From positions 959,501-1,023,500 of the forward strand of contig LVEI03000001.1 in assembly GCA_001595385.3 (NCBI GenBank): 64,000 bases of DNA, given 5' to 3'. The DNA comes from Deltaproteobacteria bacterium GWC2_55_46 (lineage in GTDB: Bacteria > Desulfobacterota > GWC2-55-46). Positions 41,559 through 64,000 of this stretch are shown here, piece by piece. Made by a program: the position numbers and the translations under genes. The notes beneath the pieces are model-generated. The model saw only the letters and a list, made by a program, of their open reading frames with translations, ran no database searches and was not told where the DNA came from. The number at the start of each line of letters is the position of its first letter. Position 1 is the first letter of the stretch.

Positions 41559-44572
<3,014 letters not shown>

Positions 44573-44765
44573 ATATACCGCCCGGCGCTAACTATGGGAT
44601 TAAAAAGGCAGAGCCGGCCTTTGCCAAGAATGAGGATGGAGGATGGCAGATGGGAATAGTCACTCGGAGGTGCAGGTGCGTACCGGACAACTCGCCACAT
44701 ACGTTGAGGAGAGTTTACCCTGTATTCTGCTTAAGAATCAAGACAATTCGATGAAGGGGCCTCTC

Positions 44766-45311: not shown

Positions 45312-45387
45312 AGAGAGTCTCCTCTACTCAAGGCAGGATGGGCATTTTTTTGAAATTTAACATCATTTCGGGGCTTTTTCAATATCC

Positions 45388-46263: not shown

Positions 46264-46408
46264 CGCGAACATATTCCAAACAGAATATAGCAGAACTTTC
46301 ATCGATGACAATCAGGGGGAATGCGGGGCGAGGCGGCAAGGTTTAATGGATGCAAAACTGTCCAGCCCGGAAGGGGCCGGACATACAGGGAGGTGAGCGG
46401 CGATACGG

Positions 46409-47173: not shown

Positions 47174-47182
47174 AATGGCTAT

Positions 47183-48037: not shown

Positions 48038-48062
48038 GGCCTCCTCCTTTTCTGTTTAAGGT

Positions 48063-48203
48063 TCATGGCTTTCTTGAACGCCTGCACCTTTCGTATATGG
48101 GACAGCCGCCCGGCCCCGGCTTGCAGGCCGGGCATGTCCCGGCATCATCGCTTGCTTCCCCTGAAGGCCCCTTTAGGCCGTCATCCGTCCCCAATTGGTC
48201 CAT
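48063..48203 (-). CDS. 46-aa Cys-rich microprotein in the oxidase operon
   Basis: A short frame fills the gap between coxA and ctaB. The ATG at 48203 is 12 bases after the coxA stop and has an AAAGGA site at 4-5 bases. It encodes 46 residues: an acidic N-terminus (MDQLGTDDGLKGPSGEASDD) and a basic Cys-rich C-terminus, TCPACKPG then GCPIYERCRRSRKP. The four Cys follow C-x2-C-x6-C-x5-C, a possible zinc- or copper-binding knuckle. It ends 25 bases before the ctaB start. I do not recognise the family; coding status rests on position, ribosome site and Cys pattern. Confidence 0.55.
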   Translation of the reverse strand: MDQLGTDDGLKGPSGEASDDAGTCPACKPGPGGCPIYERCRRSRKP

Positions 48204-48214
48204 ACGTCCTTTCG

Positions 48215-49840: not shown

Positions 49841-50589
49841 TATGCTTCACCTCCTGTGCTTTCTGCTTTTTTCGGCTTGTTTTCCTCAACCCATTTCCGG
49901 AACTCGGCCTCTGGCATCACGATGACCTTGCCGTACATGCCCGAGTGCATGGTGCCGCAGTACTCGGCGCAGGTCAAGACGTGCTCGCCTATCCCTTTCG
50001 CGTTGAACCAGAGATGGGTCTGCGAACCCGGCACCATGTCCCATTTGACCTTGTAGTCGGGCACGAAGAAGGCGTGCACGACGTCCCTGCTGGTGAGGTT
50101 CACCTTTATGGCCTTGCCCTCCGGGACCCTGAGCTCGTTGGTGGCGGTGATGCCTTCGGGGTAGGTTATATCAAATCCCCACATATACCCCTCGACCGCT
50201 ACCTCGTAGGATTCAGCGGGAGGGGTCCTCATCTTCTGCCACTGCTCGAAGTTCTTGGCGGCCAGGAATATGTCATCTGCAATGAAGAGGAAGGCCGGTA
50301 TGAATATCCAGCCCGCGGCGGCGAGCTGAGAGAGCTTAACTCCCTTGCCCTCCTCATCGCTGTTCTTCCTCCTGTACTTCACGAGAAGATAGATTATGAC
50401 AATGGCGAATAAGCCGCCTATCAAGCCGATGTCCCACATCATCTCATTCCAGAGGTGCCACCAGCCTTCGGTGATGTCAGGAACCGCTCCAGCCACCGCC
50501 GCAGCTTCCCCGGCCGCTTCCTTGGCCATGGAGGCCGCGGGCGCGAGGAGAGCGGGGACTGTCAGCAGCCATTTGATCTTTTTCATCAT
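49840..50589 (-). CDS. coxB: Cytochrome c oxidase subunit II
   Basis: About 249 residues from the ATG at 50589, behind GGAGAGGGA; longer frames extend into coxC. A signal peptide (MMKKIKWLLTVPALLAPAAS), two membrane helices and a periplasmic cupredoxin domain are visible. The dinuclear CuA site is CAEYCGTMHSGMYGKVIVMP, with all ligands present, and the aromatic YMWGFDITYPEG region carries electrons from cytochrome c. No fused cytochrome c domain follows, so it is not a caa3-type subunit. It lies between coxC and coxA. Confidence 0.95.
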   Translation of the reverse strand: MMKKIKWLLTVPALLAPAASMAKEAAGEAAAVAGAVPDITEGWWHLWNEMMWDIGLIGGLFAIVIIYLLVKYRRKNSDEEGKGVKLSQLAAAGWIFIPAFLFIADDIFLAAKNFEQWQKMRTPPAESYEVAVEGYMWGFDITYPEGITATNELRVPEGKAIKVNLTSRDVVHAFFVPDYKVKWDMVPGSQTHLWFNAKGIGEHVLTCAEYCGTMHSGMYGKVIVMPEAEFRKWVEENKPKKAESTGGEA

Positions 50590-50618
50590 TCCCTCTCCTT
50601 TCATTTTTGTCCTGCGGC

Positions 50619-51386
50619 CTACCAGAAATAGACCTGCGACACGACAAAGAACCATACTATGTCGACGAAGTGCCAGTACATGGAAGCCGCGCTCACGAAC
50701 GTCTTGTTGATCTTCCCGGCAAGGGCCGGCAGAAGGACGGCTACGAATATTCCAAGGCCGACCATCACGTGCGAGCCGTGGAAACCGGTAATGGAGAAGA
50801 AGGAGGTCGAGAAGATGTTGGTATCGAACTTGAAGCCCTCATGATAGAGCTCTGTCCATTCAAACGCCGACATCCCGAGGAAGCCCAACCCCAAGACCAT
50901 CGTGGTAACGAGCCAGAAGATGAAGCTGCTCCTGTTGTAGTGCTCCGGCTCCACGTACTTCTCCGCCATATGGATCGTGAAGCTCGACGAGACCAGTATG
51001 ACTGTCATTATGATAGGCACTATCGTAGATATCTCCGGCGTGCCGGCTGGCGGCCAGAAAGGCGCCGTAAGCCTTGTTGCCCAGTATGCCGCGAAAAAAC
51101 CCACGAAAAGCAGCGCCTCAGCGACTATGAAGAACGGCATCGCCCAGATGCTTAGACCTTCGCTGATGCCATGCTCGTCCGCGATCCCCTCTCTTACCCA
51201 GCCAGCTATCGACAACAGGACCAGCGGGGCGCCGATCCCAAGACAGATGGTCGCGTAAAGCGGCTTCTGGTAAACGAAATAGAAGCCGAAGGAGAGCGGG
51301 ATCAGGAACAATATGCCCACGCTGACCAGCATGGGCCATATGCTCGTGTGCCAACCCAACTCATGTGCATGCCCGTGCCCGTTCAT
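50619..51386 (-). CDS. coxC: Cytochrome c oxidase subunit III
   Basis: A 255-residue protein with about seven membrane helices. It opens with a His-rich NGHGHAHELGWH, and includes IVAEALLFVGFFAAYW (the conserved Glu of the lipid/proton region), FSITGFHGSHVMVGLG and YWHFVDIVWFFVVSQVYFW at the end, the classic subunit III tail. It stabilises subunit I and its proton uptake. It is the first structural gene, 18 bases after the rrf2-type regulator and 29 bases before coxB. Confidence 0.95.
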   Translation of the reverse strand: MNGHGHAHELGWHTSIWPMLVSVGILFLIPLSFGFYFVYQKPLYATICLGIGAPLVLLSIAGWVREGIADEHGISEGLSIWAMPFFIVAEALLFVGFFAAYWATRLTAPFWPPAGTPEISTIVPIIMTVILVSSSFTIHMAEKYVEPEHYNRSSFIFWLVTTMVLGLGFLGMSAFEWTELYHEGFKFDTNIFSTSFFSITGFHGSHVMVGLGIFVAVLLPALAGKINKTFVSAASMYWHFVDIVWFFVVSQVYFW

Positions 51387-51404
51387 TCATTCCACCTCCT
51401 GAAT

Positions 51405-51845
51405 TTATTTGGATAATTCGGGTCTGTTTAGTCCACTTTTATTGCCAAAAAAAAGCATTATCCCGCCTATATTCTCTGAGGACAGCACCTCCGCCACGCT
51501 CTTCGCGCATCTTTTCAAGACCCCGTAGAGCTGGCAGCCGGGTGAGTCCGGGCATTCTTCCTCCTTTCTAATGCATCTTGCTTCGACCGGGCCGTCTATA
51601 GCCTCGACCACATCAAGGAGCGTTATCATCCTCGGCGCCCTGGAGAGCATGAATCCGCCGTCCCTGCCCCTTGTAGAGGATATTATCCCCCTTGACGCGA
51701 GAGTCCGGAATATCTTCGCGAGATACTGCTTGGATATACCGGTGGCCCTGGATATCTCCTCGACGCCTGTGAAATCATCAGTTTTTGAGGCGATGTACAC
51801 GAGGCCGGCAATCGCGTACTCGGAACCCTTGCTCAACGTGAACAA
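51405..51845 (-). CDS. Rrf2 family transcriptional regulator with Fe-S-type cysteines
   Basis: A 146-residue regulator starting with TTG at 51845, with a GGGAG site about 6 bases before it. The winged helix has FTLSKGSEYAIAGLVYIAS, ISRATGISKQYLAKIFRTLA and TRGRDGGFMLSRAP. The C-terminal loop has C91, C98 and C104 (RCIRKEEECPDSPGC), the three-Cys arrangement of Fe-S-binding Rrf2 proteins such as IscR and NsrR. It probably senses oxygen, nitric oxide or Fe-S status. It is the first gene of the oxidase operon, which it probably regulates. Confidence 0.9.
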   Translation of the reverse strand: MFTLSKGSEYAIAGLVYIASKTDDFTGVEEISRATGISKQYLAKIFRTLASRGIISSTRGRDGGFMLSRAPRMITLLDVVEAIDGPVEARCIRKEEECPDSPGCQLYGVLKRCAKSVAEVLSSENIGGIMLFFGNKSGLNRPELSK

Positions 51846-51930
51846 AGAGAGCTCCCTTGTGGTGGTTCGCCTGCCGGATGGCCCCGGCCGATGGAACCTG
51901 GTTTCTGTACAGATTTACACTCGTATTAAT

Positions 51931-51946
51931 AGCAATGAACGTGCCA
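51931..51946 (-). promoter_or_regulatory. Consensus sigma-54 promoter for the rrf2-cox operon
   Basis: On the minus strand TGGCACGTTCATTGCT matches the sigma-54 consensus TGGCACG-N4-TTGC(T/A) at every defined base, with the -24 box at 51940-51946 and the -12 box at 51931-51935. Transcription would begin near 51920, about 75 bases before the rrf2 TTG start. A good enhancer candidate lies upstream at 52088-52111. Sigma-54 control needs an activator of the NtrC type; one is encoded at 26203-27516 in this window. Confidence 0.72.
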
Positions 51947-52087
51947 TGACGGATGGGTTTGATTTTCAAGGCTTTTTATTTGGATTTTTTAAGCGCCAGA
52001 CAAAAGGTGCGGCAGAATGGCAGTATAAGGCAGGCTGTTGATTCACAAAAAAACGTTAAAAAACAGATAATTGAGCTTAAAATGAGC

Positions 52088-52111
52088 ATTCATGCCGCAT
52101 GCGGCATGAAT
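52088..52111. promoter_or_regulatory. 24-base perfect palindrome, candidate enhancer (UAS)
   Basis: ATTCATGCCGCA (52088-52099) is followed directly by its exact reverse complement (52100-52111), so all 24 bases are symmetrical. It is centred about 180 bases upstream of the predicted sigma-54 start, the usual distance for an activator's binding site. There is no T run, so it is not a terminator for the kinase gene just upstream, which ends at 52127. Binding by a specific activator is inference. Confidence 0.6.
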
Positions 52112-52126
52112 TCACATAAATAGAAG

Positions 52127-53233
52127 CTATATAGAGCTCTCTTCTTCTCCGTCGGGAGAAACTTTTGTCGCGTCCAAAAGGGGGATCAGCAGGTCTACCC
52201 TCGTCTGTCCCGGAACGCTTTCTACCCGTATCTCGCCCTTCAGGTCCCTCATGATGCCGTAGCTCACGGAAAGGCCAAGGCCGGTGCCCTTGCCAACCGA
52301 TTTCGTCGTAAAAAATGGCTCGAAGACCCTCTTCAAAAGCTCCTTCGGTATGCCGGGGCCGTTGTCGGCCACGCTCACCTTTACGAAGCCTGACGCCGCG
52401 GATGTGGAGACCTCTACGGCTCCGCCGCCGCTCTCCTCGGCCGCCTCGATGGCGTTTTTGATGACGTTGAAGAGCACCTGCCTGAAACGGTCAGGGTCGG
52501 TAAGGACGACAGGCAGCCCGGGGTCGAGCGACTCCCTTAGCTCCACAGGCCCTCCGTGCCTGCCCTTCTTCACGAACTCCAACGTCCTGGAGACCAGGGA
52601 ATTCATGTCAGTCGGAACGGTGCGGGAGGCCCCGCCGCTTGAGAAACCGAGGAGGTCGTTTATGATGCCCTTGCACCTGTTTATCTCGCCCTTCATGTCG
52701 GAGAGGTACTCGCGGAGCATCTCCTTCGGCACTCTCTCCTGAGGCATCTCTATCGCGCGCTCAAGCTCGGCGGATATTATTGAGATGGTCCCGAGCGGGG
52801 TGTTGAGCTCATGGGCTATACCTGCCGCGAACTGGCCTATGGCGGCCATCTTCTCGATCTTTTCCATCAGCTCTTCCTGCTCTATCTTTATAAGGCGCTT
52901 GCCTGTCACGTCCATTACTATCTCCAGGACGCTCCCTGGCACTCCGCCCTCCCCGAGTACGGGTATGGCTATTACCTCAAGGCTTTTCTGCGTGCCATTT
53001 TTTTCAAGGGAGAACTCGTAATGGGCCGGCGTGCTCAAGTCGATGGCCCTGCCTGTCGGACAGATCTTGCAGAACTCCTGGCCGTAGCTGGCTATCCTGT
53101 AACAGGCCCTTCTCTGCCCGATGTCAGGGCCGAACCAGCCTCTGGCCTTCAGGTTCATCCATTGTATCCTGTGGCGGCAATCTATGAAGACGACAGCCGC
53201 GTCCAGGTTATCAAGCGCCTCTTCTATCTGCAT
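52127..53233 (-). CDS. Soluble PAS sensor histidine kinase
   Basis: A 368-residue cytoplasmic kinase without membrane helices. The N-terminal PAS domain (residues 3-112) has three Cys, C44, C55 and C58, in [19 protein letters not shown], a CxxCP form suited to redox, metal or heme sensing. The phospho-acceptor H141 is in [16 protein letters not shown], and ATPase boxes are [22 protein letters not shown] and [13 protein letters not shown]. It is upstream of the sigma-54 promoter of the oxidase operon and on the same strand. No partner regulator is adjacent; an NtrC-type activator is a natural guess. Confidence 0.92.
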
Positions 53234-53258
53234 CTTTTCCCGGTAATTCCTTAATGTG

Positions 53259-53288
53259 ATTATACTCTGAACGGCAGCCGCTTCACAA
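53259..53288 (-). promoter_or_regulatory. Promoter of the PAS histidine kinase gene
   Basis: On the minus strand TTGTGA (53283-53288), an 18-base spacer and a perfect TATAAT (53259-53264) lie about 25 bases before the kinase ATG at 53233. The element has the same -35, spacer and -10 as the promoter of the TPR protein at 55962-55991. Confidence 0.6.
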
Positions 53289-53311
53289 GCTGTGTTACAT
53301 GCCGGCCAGGG

Positions 53312-53340
53312 TTTACGCCGGGGCGCGGAATTGGTATAGA
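53312..53340 (+). promoter_or_regulatory. Promoter of the small alpha/beta-barrel protein gene
   Basis: TTTACG (53312-53317) and TATAGA (53335-53340) are separated by 17 bases, four of six matches each. Transcription would begin near 53347, shortly before the AAGGAGG site and ATG at 53371. This also argues against the longer frame that starts at 53299, upstream of the -35. Confidence 0.45.
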
Positions 53341-53370
53341 CTTAAATATGGGAATGAAAGGAGGACCGGT

Positions 53371-53658
53371 ATGGCATACCTTTTTATATACCACGAGGTG
53401 GCTGATTTCAAGAGATGGAAACCTGTATACGACGAGCATGAGCCCGCCAGGCGCAAGGCCGGCCTCAAGGAGGTCCTGCTCCTCCAGGGAACTGACAACC
53501 CCAGGGAGGTCGTGCTCCTTTTCGAGACCGGGGACATAAGGAAAGCCCGCGATTTTCTGGCGTCCGACGACCTCAAAGATGCCATGCGGCGGGCCGGGGT
53601 CACCGGGAAGCCGGATATCCGCTTCCTGGAAAAACCAGCGCTCCGCAAGGCGGCATAA
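53371..53658 (+). CDS. Small dimeric alpha/beta-barrel-like protein (95 aa)
   Basis: A 95-residue protein from the ATG at 53371, which has AAGGAGG 7 bases upstream. The strand-helix pattern MAYLFIYHEVADFKRWKPVY, then KEVLLLQGTDNPREVVLLFE and KARDFLASDDLKDAMRRAG resembles dimeric alpha/beta-barrel (ABM/cyclase-like) domains. Such proteins may bind or degrade small aromatic or heme-like molecules. No catalytic residue is evident. It is a single-gene unit with its own promoter and a bidirectional terminator after it. Confidence 0.72.
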   Translation: MAYLFIYHEVADFKRWKPVYDEHEPARRKAGLKEVLLLQGTDNPREVVLLFETGDIRKARDFLASDDLKDAMRRAGVTGKPDIRFLEKPALRKAA

Positions 53659-53680
53659 GGGGACCTGAAAAGCATCAAAT

Positions 53681-53716
53681 AAAAGAGGGGTTGCGAAAGA
53701 GCGACCCCTCTCTTTT
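53681..53716. terminator. Bidirectional intrinsic terminator
   Basis: A stem of GGGGTTGC with GCGACCCC (one G-T pair), extended by AGA/TCT, is flanked by AAAA on the left and a T-rich tract on the right. It lies between the convergent alpha/beta-barrel gene and the TPR protein gene, whose stop is at 53715, and can serve both. Confidence 0.82.
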
Positions 53717-55913
53717 ATTTTTTGGGTAAGCGCTTGAGCCTGGCTATCATTTGGCTGGCTCTCGTCTTGTCAAGGCTCCCGGCTTTCGAGCTTTCGATGA
53801 ACTCTTTATAATGCCCTATCGCCTCATCGTTGGCCCCCTTCGCCATCAAGGCATCAGCGACCCTTAAATGCGCCTCGGTATCGAATGGGTCGATCCTCAA
53901 TACCACCTTGAACTCCCTTATAGCCTCGTCCATCTTCCCCGAGGCGTAATAGGCCCTGCCCAGGACAAAATGGGAGTCAGCGTTGCCTGGATTGAGGTCA
54001 ACGGCCACCCTGGATTCTTCAGCCGCCCTGCCGAAGTCGCCCTTTAAAAGATAGAGGGCCCCGAGGTTGTTGTGGGCCTCGGCATAGTCCGGTTTAAGCT
54101 CGACGGCCTTCAGATACTCTTTCTCAGCCATATCGAGCCTTCCCGCCAGGTAATGGACGTTTCCGAGGTTATTGCGCCCCACTACATAGCCAGGGTCGGC
54201 CTTGAGCGCGGCCATATAAGCCTGCCCGGCCTTATCGAGCATGCGGGCTGTGAAATAGATATTCCCGATGCTGTTGTAGGCCTCCGCGTGGCCAGGGTCG
54301 AGCCTTATGACCTCGATGAACTGCTCGATCGCCTCCTCATTCCTTGAACGGGCGCTCAAAACCAGCCCCAGGTTATAGCGGGCGATATTATCAGCGGGGT
54401 CTATCCTCAACGCGGCCGTGTACTCCTGTATAGCGGGGTCTGCCAGGTTGTTACTTATGAAGAGGTTCCCCAGGTTGGTATGCGGCTCCGCGTAATCAGG
54501 GTCAAGCTCGATGGCCTTTCTATATTCCCGGACGGCGTCGTCCCCGCGCCCGGCGTCCCTGTAGATCTTGCCGAGGTCGAAATGTACGGTAGCCCTCCCG
54601 GGGCTCTTGCCGACTATATCCTGGTATAGCGACAACGGGTCCTTCCAGACGAGGTTCCTCGCGTATGTAGCCGCGCCAAGGGAGGCGGTGATGACGATAA
54701 CGGCAAGAGTAGCCGCGTGCCTTGCCCTGCCCCATCCCTTTCGGCGAGCATATTCAAAGATGAACAACAGGGATCCGGAAGCTGCCGCCGATGCCCCGGC
54801 AAGCGGGAGATAGAGCCTGTGCTCGAATATGACGTCCCTTATCGGCACAACGGAAGATTCGACCGAAAGGGCCATGAAGAACCAGAGTACGCCTGCGGAA
54901 GCCAGAAGCCCGTAAGGGTTTCTATGCTTACGCGAACGGAAAAAGAGATAGAGCGCTGAAAAAAAGATGGCTGCAAGGAAGACGAACGAGGCGGCCACCA
55001 TGGGCTCAAAGAAGCCCTTTGAAAGCCTGAAGTCATAGAGGAGGTTCTGGTCTATCGGCAAAAAGAGAAGCCTTATGTACGTTGATACGACCCTGAACTG
55101 GGTCATGAGGTAGTCGTATCTTGAAAGGGTAAGAAGCTCGTCCAGCTGCGCCAGCCGTATCTTCTCGTCTATGCCGGACCCGGCTGCCGGGGCGAGCATC
55201 TCAAGCGGTATCACCAGGGCGGCAAGCACGAACGGAGCGAGCCTTAAAAGCCTCGCCCTGAGCCTCTCCTGCGAGTTAAAGAAGGCGAAATCATAAAGGA
55301 CTATCACAAACGGAAGGGTAAAGCTAATCTCCTTTGTCTTCTGCGCGGCAACGGCGCTGACTACAGAGAGAGCGAATATCGACAGGCTCTTCCATGAACG
55401 CGAGGCTGAAAGGCGCCATCTTATGAACGTAACGAGCGAAAGGAGATAGAAAAAGGCCGCGAGCGAGGCGAACCTCTGGGTCACGTAGGTCACAGCCTCT
55501 GTCTGCACCGGGTGAAGGGCGAACAGGAGCGCGGATAAAGCCCCGGCGTAAAACGCGAGCCCCCCGCGTCCCCCAGTCGCATCGGACATAAGGGGTGTCC
55601 TGAAGGTCAACGAGACCAGCGCGAATACCAGGACAGAATTTATCGCGTGGACTATCACGTTCACAAGGTGATAGCCGAAGGGGTCGAAGCCGCCGAGGCT
55701 GAAGTTCAGGGCAAAGGAAAGGTAGGCTATATATCTCGTCCCCGCGGGGGGCCAGAAGGCGGAGAGGCTTCTTATCTCGTCGTTTTCCAGGATGTACATC
55801 CTGTCGTCCAAAACGAACGGTGAACGAAGGACCTGAGAGTAGACCAGGAGGATCGCGGCAAAGAGCAGCAGTACCAACGCCGGGGTCCTGTATTTTTTGT
55901 ACGATCCCTTCAT
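53715..55913 (-). CDS. TMTC-like membrane protein with C-terminal TPR repeats
   Basis: A 732-residue protein in two halves. The N-terminal half has about 10-12 membrane helices: VLDDRMYILENDE in the first loop (acidic GT-C-like site), FGYHLVNVIVHAINSVLVF and LFALHPVQTEAVTYVTQR, as in TMTC-type O-mannosyltransferase-like proteins. The C-terminal half (from about residue 450) has around seven or eight TPR units, such as AVREYRKAIELDPDYAEPH and AEKEYLKAVELKPDYAEAHN. It probably transfers a sugar from a polyprenyl donor to secreted protein targets. It has its own promoter. Confidence 0.82.
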   Translation of the reverse strand: MKGSYKKYRTPALVLLLFAAILLVYSQVLRSPFVLDDRMYILENDEIRSLSAFWPPAGTRYIAYLSFALNFSLGGFDPFGYHLVNVIVHAINSVLVFALVSLTFRTPLMSDATGGRGGLAFYAGALSALLFALHPVQTEAVTYVTQRFASLAAFFYLLSLVTFIRWRLSASRSWKSLSIFALSVVSAVAAQKTKEISFTLPFVIVLYDFAFFNSQERLRARLLRLAPFVLAALVIPLEMLAPAAGSGIDEKIRLAQLDELLTLSRYDYLMTQFRVVSTYIRLLFLPIDQNLLYDFRLSKGFFEPMVAASFVFLAAIFFSALYLFFRSRKHRNPYGLLASAGVLWFFMALSVESSVVPIRDVIFEHRLYLPLAGASAAASGSLLFIFEYARRKGWGRARHAATLAVIVITASLGAATYARNLVWKDPLSLYQDIVGKSPGRATVHFDLGKIYRDAGRGDDAVREYRKAIELDPDYAEPHTNLGNLFISNNLADPAIQEYTAALRIDPADNIARYNLGLVLSARSRNEEAIEQFIEVIRLDPGHAEAYNSIGNIYFTARMLDKAGQAYMAALKADPGYVVGRNNLGNVHYLAGRLDMAEKEYLKAVELKPDYAEAHNNLGALYLLKGDFGRAAEESRVAVDLNPGNADSHFVLGRAYYASGKMDEAIREFKVVLRIDPFDTEAHLRVADALMAKGANDEAIGHYKEFIESSKAGSLDKTRASQMIARLKRLPKK

Positions 55914-55961
55914 CTCTGGTCGAATGCTTCTTGTCCTGCAAGATGGCGATTTTATCGCGTC

Positions 55962-55991
55962 ATTATATACCTTTGAATTTGTATTTCACAA
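55962..55991 (-). promoter_or_regulatory. Promoter of the TMTC-like gene
   Basis: On the minus strand TTGTGA (55986-55991), an 18-base spacer and a perfect TATAAT (55962-55967) lie about 50 bases before the ATG at 55913. It is identical in design to the promoter of the PAS kinase at 53259-53288. Confidence 0.6.
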
Positions 55992-56071
55992 TGGATATTT
56001 GTTCTAAAGGCGCAAGAGCGGACAGGACAAGACGGCGACAGCGAAAAACGAAACTCATTCAGGCTGCCAAA

Positions 56072-56713
56072 TTACTTCTTGAGCTTGAACCCTATGCTCA
56101 CCTCCATCCTGCCTGTCTGGCCAGGGGGCCCGTCATTGAACGGCGCGGCCCTCTCGATCGCCTCGCAGGCGGCCTTATTGAGGACATCGCATTTGCAGGG
56201 CTTGACCACTTTAACGTCAGCTACGGACCCGTCTGTCTTTATCCTGAAGCTCACGAGCACCTCTCCCTCGTAGCCACGCTCTCTTGCCCACCTCGGGTAG
56301 AGCTTCGCCCTGTCTATCTTTCGTATCACATAGCCGCCGAATGCCGCGCCGTCTGCTTCAGCAGGAGTCTCTACAACGGCCGCGGGGGCCGTGGCCTCTG
56401 TTTTTATAGCGGCCTGCGGCTTCGCGCCTTCAACGGGCAAGGGCGGAGCCGCTACAGGCGCCCTCGCGACAGGCTCGACAGCGGCATCCATACCGGCCCT
56501 GGGCACTTCCGCTTGAGGCTCCATTTGCGCCTTGACCGGCTCCACCCTTCTCCGCGCCTCTTTTTCTTTTTCGATCGTCTCCCCAACGAGTTCTATCTGC
56601 GTATAGGCGTATGGCTGATTGACACCTTTTGGGAAAAGGCCACCGAGCGCGGCCAGGAGGATGACATGCGCGATTGCTGAGAACGCGAGCGTTGTATTAA
56701 GCTTTACCGCCAT
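56072..56713 (-). CDS. tonB: TonB energy transducer
   Basis: A 213-residue TonB. One N-terminal membrane helix (residues 9-27), a Pro/Ala-rich periplasmic spacer with repeated PVA, EP and AP units, and a C-terminal domain from about residue 139 with YPRWARERGYEGEVLVSFRI and TDGSVADVKVVK. Unusually, PCKCD and another Cys occur in that domain. It links the proton-driven ExbB/ExbD motor (not in this window) to the outer-membrane receptor. It follows the CPCC protein by 9 bases, ending the metal-uptake operon. Confidence 0.93.
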   Translation of the reverse strand: MAVKLNTTLAFSAIAHVILLAALGGLFPKGVNQPYAYTQIELVGETIEKEKEARRRVEPVKAQMEPQAEVPRAGMDAAVEPVARAPVAAPPLPVEGAKPQAAIKTEATAPAAVVETPAEADGAAFGGYVIRKIDRAKLYPRWARERGYEGEVLVSFRIKTDGSVADVKVVKPCKCDVLNKAACEAIERAAPFNDGPPGQTGRMEVSIGFKLKK

Positions 56714-56722
56714 TTCAGCTGC

Positions 56723-57919
56723 CTATCTTCCTATTACGAATATCGTCTTAAAGTTTCTCATGTCCTGCTTTTGCCAGGCGACGAGCACCTCGCCCTTGCC
56801 GTTTACAGATATCACGGGGCTGCCTGCTTTTCTGGCGTCGCTATTGAGCTTAAGTCTGAAAGCCTTCCCGCTCTCGCGAGACTCGAAGATAATGTCGCTT
56901 GCCACAGGTGTCGTCTCCTGCCATGCCAGCAGCAGCTCCTCTCCCCTCAAGGCCGATGTCACGTTATCAGGGAAACCTTTTTTATGAGCTATCCTTTCCT
57001 TCGTGAAGCTCTTTCCCCCATCGGCTGATGCGGCAAGGAATATCCCAGGCTCCCCGTCTATCTCGGCATACCACGAAACGAAGAGCCCGCCTCTGCCATC
57101 GGCCATGACAGACGGCCCCCTGTGAGGGCATCCGGCTATTTCCCATCTGTCGTTCCCGACGATTGCCGGGGCGCCAAAGGCCGCGCCTTTTCCGGATGAT
57201 ACGACGACCTCTCTTACATCGCCTGGAAAGGTCTTCCGCCAGGCAACTACGACCGAGCCATCACTGCCTGTGGCGAGCGCTGTCCTGCAGCATGGGCAGG
57301 AACCGTAATCGACAGGGGTATTAGCCGCGAAGCTCCTGCCGCCGTCCCTGGATACCGCGATAAAAGTAGCTGGCCCCTTCGCCTCCTTCTCCCTGCCGTC
57401 GAGCCATGCGGCATATACAGCGCCGTCAGGGGCGATGGCGATAGAGGCGAAGCCGGCTGACGCGGGGACCTTGTTGTCATTTACCCTGGCCGAAGGCCAG
57501 AAGCTCCTTCCGCCATCCGTAGACCTCGCGACCATCAGGTCAGAGGCAAAAGGTCCTCCGCTTCTTTTTGAGCTCCACGCGAGGTAGATCTCTCCCTTTG
57601 GGCCAAGCGCCATGGCCGGGGGCTCATGTGCTGACAACGGCGCGTCTTCCGCCCCGTTCACCTTCACTTCAGGGGAAAATCTCTTTCCATAATCGCCGGA
57701 GGCGATGAGATAGACCGAGATCCCTTCCTTTTCCTCCTCCGTCCACGCCACATAGAGCATGCCGTCATCTCCCAACAGAGCCGCCGGCGGAGAGACCGAC
57801 TTTGAACGGTGGTCTATGACGGCCTGCGGGCCGAAAGATACGCCCCCCCGGGCTGCGGGAGGCAAAGAGACAAAGAAGAGCAATGCGAATAACGCTAAAG
57901 TATACTTTTTCATGGCCAT
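56723..57919 (-). CDS. Secreted BNR/sialidase-fold protein with CPCC motif
   Basis: About 398 residues with a signal peptide and a beta-propeller built from BNR/Asp-box repeats: STDGGRSFWPSA, SRDGGRSFAANTP and SADGGKSFTKER. Between blades the motif YGSCPCCRTALATGSDGSV contains three Cys, and a later GCPHRGPSVM adds a Cys and a His, so a metal or heme site is likely. Sialidase catalytic residues are not evident, so enzymatic glycan cleavage is unlikely. It lies between the receptor and tonB genes and may collect or pass on a metal. The start could also be the ATG at 57913 or 57937. Confidence 0.75.
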   Translation of the reverse strand: MAMKKYTLALFALLFFVSLPPAARGGVSFGPQAVIDHRSKSVSPPAALLGDDGMLYVAWTEEEKEGISVYLIASGDYGKRFSPEVKVNGAEDAPLSAHEPPAMALGPKGEIYLAWSSKRSGGPFASDLMVARSTDGGRSFWPSARVNDNKVPASAGFASIAIAPDGAVYAAWLDGREKEAKGPATFIAVSRDGGRSFAANTPVDYGSCPCCRTALATGSDGSVVVAWRKTFPGDVREVVVSSGKGAAFGAPAIVGNDRWEIAGCPHRGPSVMADGRGGLFVSWYAEIDGEPGIFLAASADGGKSFTKERIAHKKGFPDNVTSALRGEELLLAWQETTPVASDIIFESRESGKAFRLKLNSDARKAGSPVISVNGKGEVLVAWQKQDMRNFKTIFVIGR

Positions 57920-57921
57920 CC

Positions 57922-60042
57922 CTATTCCCCCTTCCACCTGTAGACCAGCCCGGCGAATAACGACTGAGGTGTCCCCGGCGTATAGAGCGCTTCGCCGGAA
58001 GAGCTCTTTGCCGCCTTTTCAGCGTAATGCCTGTCAAGGAGGTTAGTGGCCTTGAGATAGACTTCCCACTGAGGTGTCAGGTAATACGAGGTCCTTAAGT
58101 TCACCAGGTCGTGCCCGCCATACTTTTCGGTATTGGCGTCGTCGAGCCAGTAGCTCCCGAGATGGACCCATTCGATCTCAGCAGCGCCCCCGTTGAGGAA
58201 CGCCGGGGTGAAATCGACCCTTACGCTCAGGTTATGCCTCGGGGCCACGGGCATCTCTTTGCCGCTGAAATCAGTACTCCCTGATACCCGCCATTCGTCA
58301 TACTCGTGCATGGAATAAGAGTAGCTTACGCCAAGACCGACCCTGTCGACCGGCTTCACTTCAAGGCCGACCTCTATCCCCTTGTGCACGGTCTTCCCGG
58401 CGTTGAGCCTCTGGCTGTCCCCCGGCGCTGCATTGAAGGTCACGATATCGTCCTTCTTCTCCATGTAATAGACTGATGTCTCGAAGCGCGCCTTTTCGCC
58501 AAGAGCGCCCTTCAAGCCCGTCTCGTAGCTGTAGACCTTTACCGGGTCGAGGTCGACCGCTGTAGCAGCGGTGCCCCCGGCCCTGAAGATATCCCCTGTT
58601 GAGGGTATCCTGAAGCCCTGGTTATAGGAGGCGAAGAGGCTTACCTTATCGGTCAGCTCGTATGTGGCCCCTGCCTTTGGGGAGAGCCTCGACCACGACC
58701 TGTAGGTCGATCCGGGCCTGTTCAGGCTTGTGGTGAGGTTGTTCGTGTAGTCATAGGCAAGGTCGTCATAGCGCGCGCCAAGGGTGAGGCGGAGCTTCTC
58801 CGCGGGAGAGAGCTCTATCTGCGTATACGGAGAGATGCCGATAAACGTCGCGTCGAAATCGTAGTTATTCGCATCCGACGTAGCATAGCTATAGCCCGTA
58901 TACTTGAGCGTGGAAGTATCCCTCGTTATGTCGAGCCGCCTCTCTTCGTACTGGCCGGGGCTGTAGTCGAGGTCTACCCCGATTATAAACCGGGTCCTCA
59001 TCGGCGCGAAATCCCTCCTGTACTTGGCAAGAAGGCCAAGGGAGTAAAAATCAGTCGTAGACTCATAGCCCATGTAGACTGAAGGGTCTGCCCCGGACTT
59101 GAAGATGGCCCACTCGGGAAGCAGTTCCATCCTGTTCTTTCTAAAGTACGGGATGACGCTTACGAGTGCGTTATCTCCGATCTCATGTTCGAGGTCGGTC
59201 GACAGCCTGAACGAATCGACGTTCCTGTAGTCGAAGGTCTGGTAGTTGTACCAGGGCCTGTCGTCATAGTCGGCCCTGGAAAGGGGCGCGCCTCCGCTCG
59301 TCTCCTGCTCTATCCCGGAGTACGAGAGTATCGTCTTCAAGCTCGTCGCATAGGTGCTCACATGGTCCCATCGAAGAGTCGCGCTCTGGCGGTCGTAGAG
59401 CTTTCTTTCGCGCCATCCCCCTGAATGGGTAACGTTGAGGTCGAGCCTGTACCCATTATCTCCGATGGTGTTGCCGCCGCTGGCGAGGAGCCTCACCCAG
59501 TCGTATGAGCCTATCTCGGGGTTAAGCTCGACCTCAGGCGTAAGCGGGGCGGGCCTGGTCATGATGTTTATCGTGCCGCCGATGGAGTCGCTCCCGTAAA
59601 GGGCCGTTCCAGTGCCCTTTATCACCTCTATCCTGCCGGCCCCGGGGACGTTGACCTCATAAAGGGCGTTATGGTTGAAAAAGCCGGTCGACCTTATCGG
59701 CACGCCATCCTCGAGGAAGAGATATACCGGGCTTGTCGTAAGGGGCTGGCGTATGGAGGTGGTGTGCCCCTCGCCGCCTGTGGAGCTGACCCAGACGCCA
59801 GGGACCCTGTTCATCACCTCGGCCGGGTGGGTGGGCCTCACCCTCTGTATCTCATCTCCTTTTATGGCGCCTGTGGCCGCGGGTATCTCTTTGGCGGGTT
59901 CGGCCTCCCTTGTGCCGGTTACGGTTACCTCGCCTATATACTCAGCCTCTTCGGCAAAGGCGCTTTGAAAGATGGGCATGAGGGCCGCAAGGGCCGCGCA
60001 CAAGCCGGTCTTACTGATAAAGATCCAATTCCTGTACTGCAT
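57922..60042 (-). CDS. TonB-dependent outer-membrane receptor
   Basis: A 706-residue receptor. A signal peptide and the TonB box (EVTVTG) lead to the plug: EVMNRVPGVWVSSTGGEG, SPVYLFLEDGVPIRSTGFFN, GAGRIEVIKGTGTALYGSDS and IGGTINIMTRPA. A 22-strand barrel with alternating aromatic residues fills the rest, ending FAGLVYRWKGE. It imports a scarce metal chelate or cofactor across the outer membrane. The ligand cannot be read from the sequence; its neighbours (CPCC protein, TlpA, Cys/His/Met-rich protein) favour a soft metal such as copper. Confidence 0.92.
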   Translation of the reverse strand: MQYRNWIFISKTGLCAALAALMPIFQSAFAEEAEYIGEVTVTGTREAEPAKEIPAATGAIKGDEIQRVRPTHPAEVMNRVPGVWVSSTGGEGHTTSIRQPLTTSPVYLFLEDGVPIRSTGFFNHNALYEVNVPGAGRIEVIKGTGTALYGSDSIGGTINIMTRPAPLTPEVELNPEIGSYDWVRLLASGGNTIGDNGYRLDLNVTHSGGWRERKLYDRQSATLRWDHVSTYATSLKTILSYSGIEQETSGGAPLSRADYDDRPWYNYQTFDYRNVDSFRLSTDLEHEIGDNALVSVIPYFRKNRMELLPEWAIFKSGADPSVYMGYESTTDFYSLGLLAKYRRDFAPMRTRFIIGVDLDYSPGQYEERRLDITRDTSTLKYTGYSYATSDANNYDFDATFIGISPYTQIELSPAEKLRLTLGARYDDLAYDYTNNLTTSLNRPGSTYRSWSRLSPKAGATYELTDKVSLFASYNQGFRIPSTGDIFRAGGTAATAVDLDPVKVYSYETGLKGALGEKARFETSVYYMEKKDDIVTFNAAPGDSQRLNAGKTVHKGIEVGLEVKPVDRVGLGVSYSYSMHEYDEWRVSGSTDFSGKEMPVAPRHNLSVRVDFTPAFLNGGAAEIEWVHLGSYWLDDANTEKYGGHDLVNLRTSYYLTPQWEVYLKATNLLDRHYAEKAAKSSSGEALYTPGTPQSLFAGLVYRWKGE

Positions 60043-60060
60043 GGAAGATATCTCCTTGTC

Positions 60061-60597
60061 TCATTCATTCAGAAGCTTCTCGAAGAACCTTTTTGAAGGA
60101 CCGCTGTCCCATTCCCTCGGGCCGACTATCCTGCCCTTTATCTTTCCGTCCCTCCCTATTATGTAGCTCGTGGGAAAGACCGTAGCGCCGTACGCCGCCG
60201 AGACATCTCCCGCTGGGTCAAGCAGCACGGGGAAGGTGACTTCGTGCATCCTGCACACCTCGCCCACCCTGTGCATGCCGCCCTTGTCTCCTGCTATGGA
60301 GACTATGGCAAGCCCACTGGGGCCGAGCTCTTTCCATAGCGCCTCGAGGGCCGGCATCTCTTCAAGGCATGGCTCGCACCACGTCGCCCAGAAGTTAAGG
60401 AGCGTTACATTGCCTTTGAAATCAGCAAGGCGCCAGGCCTTTCCGTCAACGCCGGGAAGGGTAAAGTCCGGCGGCAGGGTAAGGCCCCTGGACTGGACTA
60501 CGCCCATACCGGCATTGTCCTTGCAGTGGGCCGGCATGGCAAAGAGAAATAGCGCAATGACCGCCAATAGAAGCGGCCTCGCGGCTCGACAGCGCAT
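60061..60597 (-). CDS. TlpA-like periplasmic thioredoxin
   Basis: A 178-residue secreted thioredoxin-fold protein. Signal peptide residues 1-24; FTLPGVDGKAWRLADFKGNV and NFWATWCEPCLEEMPALEAL hold the active site C74-x2-C77. LLDPAGDVSAAYGATVFPTS contains the cis-proline. Two more Cys occur, one at the end of the signal region and one in EVCRMHEVTF. TlpA-type proteins keep CuA/Sco or receptor cysteines reduced. It lies 18 bases before the receptor gene and shares its strand. Confidence 0.92.
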   Translation of the reverse strand: MRCRAARPLLLAVIALFLFAMPAHCKDNAGMGVVQSRGLTLPPDFTLPGVDGKAWRLADFKGNVTLLNFWATWCEPCLEEMPALEALWKELGPSGLAIVSIAGDKGGMHRVGEVCRMHEVTFPVLLDPAGDVSAAYGATVFPTSYIIGRDGKIKGRIVGPREWDSGPSKRFFEKLLNE

Positions 60598-60683
60598 AAA
60601 AGACCTCCTTCAGGCCGCAGACGCAATAGCGCTTAATGTTTATTTAAGAGATTTAGCCAGGATGCGGAAAAAATCCAAAACAT

Positions 60684-60765
60684 GTCATTCTGATGGAGCG
60701 GCAGCGACCGAAGAATCTCGCGCACCGATTTTCAGGCGAGATTCTTCGCATTCGCTCAGAATGAC
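60684..60765. repeat. MITE-like imperfect inverted repeat
   Basis: Left end GTCATTCTGA (60684-60693) and right end TCAGAATGAC (60756-60765) are perfect inverted copies. Inner arms carry GAAGAATCTCGC and GCGAGATTCTTCGC. The whole is about 82 bases and folds into a long hairpin. Elements of this kind are scattered in many bacterial genomes as non-autonomous repeats. It is between the Cys/His/Met-rich gene and tlpA. No second copy was seen in the window. Confidence 0.72.
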
Positions 60766-60808
60766 CGTCAAGTGAGTTTTTTCAGCAGCCTGTCAGGTGA
60801 ACCGGACT

Positions 60809-61255
60809 TTAATTGGAAGCTGGCGGCCTGTCTGTGAGGCCTTGTGGAGGGTCTGTATAAACGGTGCTTTGCGAGCAGATATTGGCGCTGCCGCAATCGA
60901 CGAGACGAACACCGCCCATTGACGTAAGGTAATCAGTTTCGGATATCGTGGAGGAGACCCCCGAGGCGCCTTCATCTTCGCAGGATATGACGCAGCATGG
61001 GCTGTGGTCACTATCGGACGAGCTGTTCTCATCTTCCACGTTCGAGACATGGCAGATAAGGCCATTGCCGCCGTCGCCGTCCGCGTGATGGCCATGGCCT
61101 GCGCCATGTTTATTACCGTGCATGGGGCAAGCGTCGCCATGGGTGCATTCATGGACAGGGCCGACCGAGCAGGACCCGGCAGAAGCCTTCACAAGCTGGC
61201 TGAATATGGGAGAGAGCATGAGCAAGACTAAGATTAAGGAAAGGTACCTGGTCAT
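60809..61255 (-). CDS. Secreted Cys/His/Met-rich metal-binding protein
   Basis: About 148 residues from the ATG at 61255; a GTG at 61261 would add two residues. A signal peptide (ending near VKASAG) leads to a cluster of likely ligands: HECTHGDACPMHGNKHGAG, then HGHH, ICHV, SPCCVISC. The mix of Cys, His and Met is characteristic of copper- or zinc-binding periplasmic proteins. A 12-base palindrome TTTAACGTTAAA (61269-61280) lies just upstream and could be an operator. It is separated from tlpA by a 211-base gap containing the inverted repeat. Confidence 0.68.
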   Translation of the reverse strand: MTRYLSLILVLLMLSPIFSQLVKASAGSCSVGPVHECTHGDACPMHGNKHGAGHGHHADGDGGNGLICHVSNVEDENSSSDSDHSPCCVISCEDEGASGVSSTISETDYLTSMGGVRLVDCGSANICSQSTVYTDPPQGLTDRPPASN

Positions 61256-61410
61256 ATCCACAAGGATTTTTAACGTTAAACCGTGAGGAGCAATGATATC
61301 CGCAGATGCCGGAGATCAGGTCATGTTCACAGAATATCATTTTTTTCCGCTTGAGGCAAGCAGGGGTTAAACTGGATAAAAAGCGCAAGAGAAAAACCCG
61401 CAGGTTAAAA

Positions 61411-61518
61411 TCATCGGCTTATCATCTTTTTTATCCCGAGAACGCCCTTAAGGCGTCCTTCTATTATGAACTCCACGGTGGTCGACACGATGTAAAGCGC
61501 GGCGGCTATTCCTTCCTC
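61411..61518 (-). pseudogene. C-terminal remnant of a potassium-channel gene
   Basis: Downstream of the GT-C gene and overlapping its stop, another frame encodes about 35 residues: EEGIAAALYIVSTTVEFIIE, then GRLKGVLGIKKMISR and a stop. This is the pattern at the end of the pore-lining helix and the linker before the RCK domain of bacterial potassium channels, with the ...VEG.L...LG..KM... run. The filter and first helix are absent. It therefore appears to be a fragment left after recombination; codon use looks native. Confidence is moderate as the match is short. Confidence 0.45.
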
Positions 61519-63215
61519 ACATAGACCTTCAAGCGCTCCGATTCGGTCGCTGCTATCGGGGTGCGGTAGAGGTGCCTGATACCCTCGTAGTGCAGGTCCG
61601 GGATGTTATTTACCGGATGGTCCCTGACCTGCAAGGCGACCTTCTCGTACTCGGCCTTTTGCATGAAGTAATTGAACGCGTCGACATACGGGAAGCCGGC
61701 CCAGGAACGCCTGTGGATTATAACGTCTGGCACCTCTTTCATGTCCTCCCGGATAGTGTTAAATCTATACCCGACCACTACCTTGCTTCCAAGGTAATAC
61801 ATCAAGGAGGCCTCTTCGTAGTTTGTGGCTATGACGAGCCCCTCCGTATTCTCATAATTCTCCTTTACGTAAGAGACTATCGCGTCGACGGGACCGCTAT
61901 ATTGATGGGTAAGCTCGTAGATATGCCCTGAGAGGTCTTTCATCTTATTGAGGCCGTTGATGAAGAGAAGGGCTGCGGCCGCGGATACGAATACTGCCTG
62001 CCGTCTCTTTCGGGCGGCTTCCGCCCCCCTGCCCAGGAGAGCGAATATCGAGAAGGCGTCCAGGAGCAAAATGATGGGCAGGACAGGCAACAGGACTATG
62101 AAGTAGTGCGTGGACATGATCAACGGATTTACCGCTGTAACAAGGACATGGACTATAAAAAAGAGGGTCAGAAGGTTAGAGACACGGACCTTTTCGGCAG
62201 CGGCGCCAAAGGGCCCGGCCCCTGAAAGGCGGTCCCGGACGATAAGGCAGGCAAGGACCCCCTTCATAAAAAGGGCCAGATAGAGGAACTCGTACTGCGC
62301 GAAATAATGAATTATATTGGCGATGTTTCTGATGTATTGTCCTGGGCCGAAATTATCCGTGGACGCAACGCTTACGACTTCCATCGTCCTGAAGAAAACG
62401 ATAGGCGGGACGACGGTCAGAACCGACGCGAAGATCGGGATGAAGGGCTTGAGATCGCGTATGCCTGGAAGAGTAAAGGCCTTGCCTGACCCTTTTAGCG
62501 GCCACATACGCTTTACGAGCGCCAGTGATTCACAAAGCCCGATAAAGCCTATCAATACGAAATAGGTCGGGTAAAACGCGTTGTATATGAGAAAGAGCGC
62601 GGCTACGGAGACCGCGGCGTAAAGACCGAAGCTCAACCGGCCCAGCAGCCTGTGGTTTATGAAAAAATAGAGCACGATGGCGGATAAAAGTATTACAGGC
62701 GAATAATAACGGGCCTCCCTCAGGTGCAGCGCCAGTGAGACAGACAAAAGGGCGAAGAGGGCGAAGAGCGAGTAGAAAAGGAGCTTCCCCGGCCGCCTCT
62801 TTTCAAAGAGGCCTCCCGCCAAAGCAGCCATAACGATCATCCCAACGAGACCCGTAAGAGCGAAAGGCGCCCTGAAAAGGAACGTCCTGGCATAGATGTC
62901 TTCCGCCTTCTGAGCGAGCCACGCGCCCGGGACAGCCCAGTAGTAGCACAGGAGCGGGTCGGCGGTGAACATGTCGTGTTCGTTGACCCCAAGGCGCATG
63001 TCGACAGGATGGACATATAGCACGTTCTTGCCGTCATGGACCTTCGGGTAGCCGTACTCCAGCACACGGGTGGCGAACATGGCCGTGTCGCCCTCGTCGT
63101 TCCAGAGGAGCGGATAGGAGAGGTGCTTCCCGACGCTCACGCTGAAGAGTATTGCCAGGACCGCAAGAAGTGCTAGAAGAAGCCTGTTGACGTTTTTATT
63201 CTTTTCGCTCGGCAT
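61506..63215 (-). CDS. GT-C membrane glycosyltransferase (GT39/ArnT-like)
   Basis: A 569-residue protein with about 11-13 membrane helices. The first loop has YPLLWNDEGDTAMFATRVLE, with the acidic cluster (D, E, D) typical of GT-C catalytic loops in the PMT/ArnT group. FIPIFASVLTVVPPIVFFR and LIMSTHYFIVLLPVLPIILL are later helices; the last 130 residues are soluble and include IVSYVKENYENTEGLVIATNY. It would transfer a sugar from a polyprenyl phosphate donor in the periplasm. It lies 82 bases downstream of a methyltransferase and may belong to another surface-glycan set. Confidence 0.82.
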   Translation of the reverse strand: MPSEKNKNVNRLLLALLAVLAILFSVSVGKHLSYPLLWNDEGDTAMFATRVLEYGYPKVHDGKNVLYVHPVDMRLGVNEHDMFTADPLLCYYWAVPGAWLAQKAEDIYARTFLFRAPFALTGLVGMIVMAALAGGLFEKRRPGKLLFYSLFALFALLSVSLALHLREARYYSPVILLSAIVLYFFINHRLLGRLSFGLYAAVSVAALFLIYNAFYPTYFVLIGFIGLCESLALVKRMWPLKGSGKAFTLPGIRDLKPFIPIFASVLTVVPPIVFFRTMEVVSVASTDNFGPGQYIRNIANIIHYFAQYEFLYLALFMKGVLACLIVRDRLSGAGPFGAAAEKVRVSNLLTLFFIVHVLVTAVNPLIMSTHYFIVLLPVLPIILLLDAFSIFALLGRGAEAARKRRQAVFVSAAAALLFINGLNKMKDLSGHIYELTHQYSGPVDAIVSYVKENYENTEGLVIATNYEEASLMYYLGSKVVVGYRFNTIREDMKEVPDVIIHRRSWAGFPYVDAFNYFMQKAEYEKVALQVRDHPVNNIPDLHYEGIRHLYRTPIAATESERLKVYVRKE

Positions 63216-63297
63216 GCCGGTATTTTTATATAATTTCGCTTAAAAAAACAAGCCTGATCAGAAACAGGGAAGGCGCGGAAGCGGTTAATGAACGGGC

Positions 63298-64000
63298 CTA
63301 CGGTTTTCTCGCCATGCACGTGACCGAACCGCCTACAGGGAAAGAGATGAGCCCCAATAAACCAGCCTCAAACCTCGGGAACAGAAAAAGAATACGGTTG
63401 AGGAGCGGGTTTATCTTCCGCACGTCCGATTCGGATTCTACTCTGCTCCTTTTTTTAAGCAGCCTGAGGATGAGGATGAGAGGAAAAAGGAAAAAATTGA
63501 AATAGGAGAGTTTTTCTATTACAAGGCCGCATGAGGCCATAAGCTCCCTCATATCCGCGGCGTTGTAGCGCTTCTTGCCGTGCATCGACTTGTCATGGGG
63601 GCCGTACAGGAACATCCACGCGGGTTCGCTCAGGATGACGCGGCCGCCCTTCTTAAGGGTCCTTGCAAGCTCTCTCAGGACGGTCTGGTCGTCGCGGACG
63701 TTGCGGTGGTAAAAGACATCTATGGCAGTTACTACGTCAAAGGTCTCGTCTTGGAAGGGCAACGATTCCGCTGTCCCCCGCGCGAGGTTGGGAAGTCCTC
63801 TTTTCCTGCAGTACGATAGCGCTGTCGTTGAGAAGTCGATCCCGTATGGGCTGCCGTACCTGCCGAGCTTTGAGAGGAGGCCGCCTGTCCCGCAGCCCAC
63901 GTCGAGTATCTTCTTGCCTTGAGAGGCCGGCAACCTTTTGAAAAGACCGAGAAGGATCTCATGCTTCCCCCTGAACCACCAGTAGGAATCCTCCATCTCG
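63298..64000 (-). CDS. Class I SAM methyltransferase (N-terminus beyond window)
   Basis: At least 232 residues. The start lies at or before the window edge: an internal ATG occurs at 63996, but the preceding codon is an in-frame GAG and related proteins usually begin a little earlier with a xEDxxWWF segment. DSYWWFRGKHEILLGLFKRL precedes motif I, ILDVGCGTGGLLSKLG, then DVVTAIDVFYHRNVRDDQ and KKGGRVILSEPAW. A C-terminal hydrophobic region and a basic RLLKKRSR stretch suggest membrane contact. The acceptor is unknown. Confidence 0.85.
   Translation of the reverse strand, partial: EMEDSYWWFRGKHEILLGLFKRLPASQGKKILDVGCGTGGLLSKLGRYGSPYGIDFSTTALSYCRKRGLPNLARGTAESLPFQDETFDVVTAIDVFYHRNVRDDQTVLRELARTLKKGGRVILSEPAWMFLYGPHDKSMHGKKRYNAADMRELMASCGLVIEKLSYFNFFLFPLILILRLLKKRSRVESESDVRKINPLLNRILFLFPRFEAGLLGLISFPVGGSVTCMARKP

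Follow-up and report, generated by a model that had tools for sequence, protein, structure and literature searches.

Few systems describe how copper enters Gram negative bacteria and is sensed before it does harm. In one of these, CruR controls the operon of a TonB-dependent receptor (TBDT) in response to copper, which depends on a CXXC motif and on a RAPP sequence, with the CXXC about 45 residues ahead of the RAPP (PMC9426467), and arrest by CruR has been demonstrated in vitro (PMC12992588). In a survey of RAPP/RGPP upstream open reading frames (uORFs), many phyla had them ahead of TonB- and Cu-related genes, Bacteroidota are reported to lack Cu-related ones, and RDPP is described as partly permissive in other arrest peptides (PMC12992588). 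An essential His has been described for copper import by CrtA (PMC12914433), and for CutF an argument from the length of nascent chain hidden in the ribosome tunnel has been made (PMC9973294). Here we describe an operon of five genes in a stretch of 64,000 nucleotides (hereafter, the window) of Deltaproteobacteria bacterium GWC2_55_46 (contig LVEI03000001.1, positions 959,501 to 1,023,500), and compare it with these systems.

We consider it probable, albeit well short of certain, that this operon serves copper acquisition under the control of a copper-sensing nascent-chain leader, CruR-like but not of the DUF2946 family, with a propeller protein carrying C-x-C-C as periplasmic partner. This reading comes from comparison of sequences. 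In transcription order, the genes are as follows.

60809..61261 (start GTG 61261 or ATG 61255), minus strand: leader open reading frame (ORF), 150 amino acids, first gene in transcription order
60061..60597, minus strand: TlpA/ResA-like exported thioredoxin, 178 amino acids, with WCEPC (Pfam AhpC-TSA, 2.9e-25)
57922..60042, minus strand: TBDT, 706 amino acids (Pfam Plug 7.2e-17, barrel 5e-52)
56723..57919, minus strand: CPCC propeller, 398 amino acids from ATG 57919 or 404 from GTG 57937 (BNR_2, 4.1e-9)
56072..56713, minus strand: dedicated TonB, 213 amino acids (Pfam TonB_C, 4.5e-15)

The intergenic gaps are, in order, 211 bp, 18 bp, a 16-bp overlap or a 2-bp gap depending on the start codon of the propeller, and 9 bp. 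Thus the ORF coordinates bear out an earlier note on this DNA, which had described five genes of one strand with short gaps apart from the 211 bp, and the motifs it had listed are also present: the propeller contains GSCPCCRTA and GCPHRG, and the small first ORF contains CTHGDACPMHG and HGHH.

The same note had taken this Cys/His/Met-rich ORF for a secreted copper binder. This found no support and is probably wrong; because of its place as first gene of the operon, its Pro-Pro tail and the spacing of its Cys residues, we read the ORF as a regulatory leader. It has a hydrophobic N-terminus, a middle part rich in Cys, His and Met, and a C-terminal DRPPASN (tail TDRPPASN-stop), with the Pro-Pro 3 residues from the end (RPP codons 60821-60829). 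The last Cys of its CC-VISC motif (residues 89-94, about 60980-60997) lies 51 residues ahead of the Pro-Pro. Neither Pfam nor NCBIfam has a model matching the leader at E up to 1; PF11162 (DUF2946) does not match it either, and membership of DUF2946 was rejected on this ground. The NCBIfam family HYC_CC_PP was also dropped, as the model is absent among the families listed for 49 leaders and the name does not occur in the papers that a literature search listed. In a congener, L053, only the 3' part of the leader is on the contig; over 75 residues it agrees with the window leader in part of the Cys area and at the end (FDRPPAS in L053, TDRPPAS in the window).

One scan of 84,980 species genomes gave 133 relatives, of which 80 were kept, making 81 loci with the window; the relatives' records are labelled Deltaproteobacteria, Nitrospinota, Acidobacteria, Gemmatimonadetes, Bacteroidetes, α-, β- and γ-proteobacteria, and others. 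In propeller and receptor searches, relatives of the same family and class show the order small ORF, TlpA, (second small ORF), TBDT, propeller, ExbB, ExbD, TonB, and each of their small ORFs ends in x-P-P a few residues ahead of the stop. A complete receptor-sized ORF lies directly before the propeller in 56 of the 81 loci, ExbB and ExbD precede TonB in many relatives, and SCO1, PCuAC, CusF or thioredoxin-like genes adjoin the operon in some. The earlier note had called for a search for the receptor-CPCC-tonB set in other genomes, and the set with its motifs indeed recurs across distant groups. Since order and motifs recur in relatives, the gene set is not due to chance.

The leader was tested in the 53 loci where the propeller immediately follows a complete receptor-sized ORF and the upstream DNA extends for 1 kb or more; the other 28 of the 81 were left out because the receptor is incomplete or the upstream DNA shorter than this. 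A signal-like ORF with at least two Cys and a Pro-Pro within the last 14 residues, no more than 1.5 kb upstream, was found in 38 of the 53 loci as compared to 9 of 484 control windows taken from these loci, and the next commonest C-terminal dipeptide, LL, in 11 of 53. With a Cys-spacing rule added, which was derived from the same data it was applied to, the counts were 38/53, 2/53 on the opposite strand and 5/484 in the control. In all 38 leaders, a Cys is located 44-58 or 60-72 residues ahead of the Pro-Pro (shuffles: mean 26.3, none of 2000 reaching 38), and 33 of the 38 have no Cys nearer to it than 44 residues (500 shuffles: mean 5.4, largest 11). The ribosome tunnel conceals about 44 residues of a nascent chain. 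Among the 15 loci failing the test, four (L056, L065, L116 and L117) carry a leader further upstream, and in L061 the leader is truncated at the contig end. The gap from leader to next gene has a median of 160 bp (162 bp for CruR). At the 3' end of the leader, a C-rich/G-poor peak reaches at least the 90th percentile of receptor and propeller coding sequence in 35 of 43 cases, and such a peak is what a Rho site would need.

A wider set of 49 leaders, from which those of L053, L061, L069, L070, L075, L104 and L126 are excluded (the leader counted for L061 is another, downstream one), falls into 13 BLASTP clusters, across which a Cys lies 44-72 residues ahead of the Pro-Pro. Four of the 49 match DUF2946, the CruR family, and all four stand before the same receptor-propeller pair; one matches CopL. 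RAPP or RGPP forms the tail in eight, and the commonest tail is FHPP (12). That the small ORF instead encodes a stable, secreted carrier or buffer of copper, rich in Cys, His and Met, and plays no part in regulation seems unlikely. Although its signal-like N-terminus, its CTHG, CPMHG and HGHH motifs and the abundance of His and Met in several relatives would suit a carrier, the Pro-Pro is the sole invariant pair of an alignment with a mean column identity of 12%, and both the location ahead of the receptor at 38 of 53 loci and the Cys-free last 44 residues in 33 of 38 leaders argue against it. Furthermore, CruR-family members hold the same place, and proteomics is reported to have failed to detect the CruR product (PMC9426467).

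Some loci carry leaders in other arrangements. L064 (4483-6962) and L066 (4596-7410) have two similar leaders per operon, one preceding the genes on the TlpA side and the other preceding the TBDT, which looks like separate attenuation of the two parts. In two relatives of the same family, L038 (6439-8529) and L043 (7625-9629), a leader of the window type heads another operon and ends in RPERPPSTIL and SIDRPPSPFLF, respectively. This second operon encodes an outer-membrane-like Phenol_MetA_deg protein with a CGLSCCLAGAATSG start, followed by a TlpA-like gene. Phenol_MetA_deg homologues with an ACDxC start are found upstream of TlpA in L056, L061, L064 and L065, and a search of the window's own genome for the 'CGLSCC' outer-membrane protein gave one distant match (E 4e-12).

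As for the receptor, its profile matched PqqU/YncD best among solved structures (1.6e-107), with CrtA (9RVQ) at 1.5e-57, FecA at about 2e-57 and OprC at about 1e-22 (partial). The single window sequence gave 39 matches, and OprC is not among them. In a fold comparison (VIA-align), PqqU ranked first (Z 38.5), level with FhuA and others, and neither CrtA nor OprC is among the 50 matches listed; the predicted receptor model has a predicted local distance difference test score (pLDDT) of 88.3. Identification as CrtA was rejected since the profile is no nearer to CrtA than to FecA and PqqU is far better, and identification as OprC since its match is weak and partial. Three His residues are conserved, H93 (37/47) and H124 (36/47) in the plug region and H553 (45/47) in the barrel, and their counterparts in PqqU are not His. 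The thioredoxin belongs to the TlpA/ResA group by its AhpC-TSA/Redoxin domain with CxxC, and it scores below the cut-offs of the specific NCBIfam models for ResA (NF002854, 9.3e-28) and TlpA.

The resemblance to PqqU raises the possibility that an organic cofactor or chelate, for instance pyrroloquinoline quinone, or else iron or cobalamin complexes enter through the receptor, with the propeller as a redox partner. Siderophore and B12 models of NCBIfam indeed match the receptor below cut-off, but the scores are far too low for PqqU itself (NF041535, 114 bits against a cut-off of 1200) and for BtuB (TIGR01779, 136 against 599.7), and the three conserved His residues are not found in PqqU. In addition, there is no Rfam match within 44000-64000 of the window, on which ground control by a cobalamin or other riboswitch was dropped, and no Fur-box-like site at three or fewer mismatches to a 19-bp consensus, on which ground Fur control was dropped. 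The earlier note had named a Fur box and a cobalamin riboswitch as the findings that would speak against copper uptake. We regard import of such a compound as quite improbable.

The propeller is a secreted BNR/Asp-box β-propeller (PF13088, 36.6 bits against a cut-off of 31.4) with the motifs C208-P-C210-C211 and W259..G263-C264-P-H266. Among 76 aligned propellers, C208 is kept in 75, C210, C211 and C264 in all 76, and H266 in 73, and C-x-C-C plus GC(P) is retained across phyla. The loci were fetched by either of two patterns, CPCC or GCP; as those fetched only by CPCC have W..GC in 21 of 21 cases and those fetched only by GCP have C-x-C-C in 52 of 53, the joint conservation is no search artefact. 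The predicted model (pLDDT 94.4, predicted template modelling score 0.90) finds its best folds among sialidase-like and related glycoside propellers, and the alignments of the best-matching sialidases stop ahead of the CPCC region. Annotated relatives on plasmids, of which one query retrieved 62 records and the window protein 67, are named 'sialidase family protein', a name that probably misleads. In the open full-text literature (subscription papers and preprints lying outside), no title was found that ties a BNR/sialidase-like propeller to copper and TonB.

Eleven annotated plasmid neighbourhoods of the propeller were opened, chosen to span genera. In all eleven, copper genes lie within 6-7 kb of the propeller, among them those for azurin, multicopper oxidases, CopC/CopD, CusA and copper-binding proteins, and in Methylomagnum copC and amoAB. 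Ten of the 11 propellers were inspected for C-x-C-C and GCP, and all ten have both. It is conceivable that the propeller and the thioredoxin capture periplasmic copper in defence rather than for acquisition, and that the receptor acts otherwise. The multicopper oxidases, CopC/CopD, CusA-type efflux and P-type ATPases beside the plasmid propellers would fit this, but in 56 of the 81 loci the receptor-sized ORF lies directly before the propeller, often with the import machinery ExbB/ExbD/TonB, and no efflux gene was recognised by Pfam among the five genes of the window, so that we hold a defensive role to be distinctly improbable. That the operon serves another metal, most likely zinc, through the same type of leader is very improbable: Cys/His sites do not discriminate between metals, and the genes listed as down-regulated in a Zur study of Caulobacter include DUF2946 genes adjoining czr efflux genes and close to a TBDT (PMC4176598), but copper genes accompany the propeller in every plasmid neighbourhood opened, SCO1, PCuAC and CusF are neighbours in relatives, and an oxidase and SCO1 adjoin the window operon.

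Three further observations concern the relatives of the propeller. Plasmid copper islands of Rhodobacterales, Methylomagnum and Runella (L141-L151) carry one. In the methanotroph Methylomagnum (L143, 5827-7385), the propeller is followed by copC, with amoA/amoB about 5 kb away. A distant relative of the same phylum, L041 (10608-11078), has, side by side, TonB, a propeller 25% identical that keeps CPCC, an ORF the size of a TBDT and a small protein rich in Cys (CRRCSMY..CRYCG); this small protein may resemble DUF2318.

Two other features of the window bear on the setting of the operon.

60598..60808 (repeat about 60676-60775), no strand: hairpin-forming repeat in the gap between leader and tlpA, from folding and genome matches
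51845 to 46409, minus strand: Rrf2, COX3, COX2, COX1, UbiA-family and SCO1 operon (aa3-type oxidase), as context

The gap folds strongly (z -4.07 over 60560-60870). The repeat has 7 matches in the genome including itself, three of the others being 75-81% identical over more than 80 bp, and in the congener L053 the gap is 59 bp without it. Because of these other copies and its absence from L053, we read the repeat as an insertion that probably occurred between leader and tlpA in the window genome. The copper-requiring oxidase operon that the earlier note had placed nearby is real; the 4.2 kb that separate it from tonB are occupied by a histidine kinase, a small ORF on the plus strand and a TPR protein.

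Several points weigh against copper acquisition under a nascent-chain leader. Ten of the 53 loci (L072, L076, L085, L086, L087, L111-L114 and L132) have no Pro-Pro leader even in a wider view. The leader of the window itself has C123 and C129 only 22 and 16 residues ahead of the Pro-Pro, being one of the five exceptions to the Cys-free zone among the 38, its tail is DRPP rather than RAPP or RGPP, and no promoter-like site was found ahead of it. The C-rich peak may be due in part to Pro codons. The receptor is nearest to PqqU and not to any known copper receptor, and at position 319 of the propeller, His in 67 of 76, the window has N. One of four distant control stretches on the same plasmids also has copper genes, the other three being without. 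The plasmid propellers are mostly in copper-resistance or efflux islands without a TBDT, and therefore the propeller need not mean uptake. Finally, the link to the oxidase does not discriminate, because COX1 is present in 30 of 30 genomes of the family.

Despite these points, copper acquisition under a copper-sensing leader is the reading we favour, and the following scenario would account for the operon. When copper is short, a ribosome on the leader would stall at DRPP next to the stop, as at RAPP in CruR, and would block Rho or an RNA hairpin from silencing the downstream genes, so that receptor, propeller, TlpA and TonB would be produced. Copper, once present, would bind the Cys cluster of the leader about 50 residues upstream, thus outside the ribosome, the stall would be released and the operon turned down. 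The receptor, powered by its own TonB, would carry a copper complex over the outer membrane; in the periplasm, copper would be taken or held at the C-x-C-C/GCPH site of the propeller, with the TlpA-like thioredoxin keeping the site or the copper reduced; and copper might then be delivered to heme-copper oxidases, such as the one with SCO1 4 kb from the operon. The strength of these steps is not equal. That the metal is copper is the firmest, well supported albeit unproven, and the case for regulation by the leader, made by comparison, is strong. The direction of transport is the weakest step. Copper import, the direction of regulation and the stalling of ribosomes are what we infer. Of the candidate copper uptake route proposed in the earlier note, the copper and respiratory setting has thus gained support, from the adjacent SCO1/oxidase operon, the SCO1, PCuAC, CusF and thioredoxin-like neighbours, the DUF2946 leaders (4/49) and the plasmid copper genes (11/11); import across the outer membrane is still inferred, given a receptor nearest to PqqU and plasmid relatives in resistance islands.

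More tentatively, with a chance that we put slightly below even, copper-sensing arrest-peptide leaders may form a cross-phylum class set by architecture and not by homology, each an exported nascent chain having a Cys cluster 45-70 residues before a Pro-Pro at the stop, and being exchanged freely before one conserved TBDT and C-x-C-C propeller module in genomes labelled Deltaproteobacteria, Nitrospinota, Acidobacteria, Bacteroidetes and Proteobacteria; the propeller would then be a new periplasmic copper protein common to uptake operons and resistance islands. If so, there would be a testable copper-uptake module far beyond the proteobacterial CruR/CrtA case, and a widespread 'sialidase family protein' could be named as a copper protein. 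It would also imply that ribosome-stalling copper sensors arose or diverged many times under one geometric rule, a metal site just outside the ribosome and a terminal Pro-Pro, and the leader architecture would give a way to detect leaders missed by RAPP/RGPP searches.

In comparison with known systems, the propeller shares the BNR_2 domain and the fold (Foldseek template modelling score up to 0.64) with BNR/Asp-box sialidase-like propellers, and differs from them by its C-x-C-C and W..GCPH. The receptor shares with PqqU/YncD the best solved profile match and the tied top fold row, but is only about 20% identical and has H93, H124 and H553 for itself. CutF of the Rhodobacter capsulatus cutFOG operon resembles the leader as proposed here in sensing copper as an exported nascent chain, its Cys motif lying 45 residues ahead of an end rich in proline; however, it is a DUF2946 member and, with copper present, is reported to raise a multicopper oxidase via an mRNA stem-loop, which is the opposite sign (PMC9973294). 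A close likeness in architecture is to cruR-crtA(bfrG)-PepSY_TM of Bordetella pertussis, which also has a short exported Cys-containing first ORF, a C-terminal Pro-Pro, a long gap and a TBDT, and for which a link to copper and respiratory oxidases has been reported (PMC9426467, PMC12914433). The window leader is likewise the first gene of a TBDT operon followed by a long gap, here enlarged by the repeat. In contrast, it has neither PF11162 nor RAPP nor a CXXC about 45 residues upstream, ending in DRPP with its Cys motif 51 residues ahead of the Pro-Pro; the receptor is PqqU-like and not CrtA; and propeller, TlpA and TonB replace PepSY_TM, no PepSY domain being recognised by Pfam in the five genes. 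In PMC12914433 the words 'sialidase', 'propeller' and 'TlpA' do not occur, nor do 'sialidase' and 'BNR' in PMC9426467. Because the DUF2946, RAPP and spacing features of CruR are absent, we describe the operon as CruR/CrtA-like in its working but not as a member of that family. The RAPP/RGPP arrest-peptide uORFs, lastly, are also small and secretory, carry a Pro-Pro close to the C-terminus and precede TonB- or Cu-related genes in many phyla (PMC12992588, PMC10987492); unlike them, 41 of the 49 leaders here have neither RAPP nor RGPP, and 17 of the 22 loci labelled Bacteroidota carry a leader.

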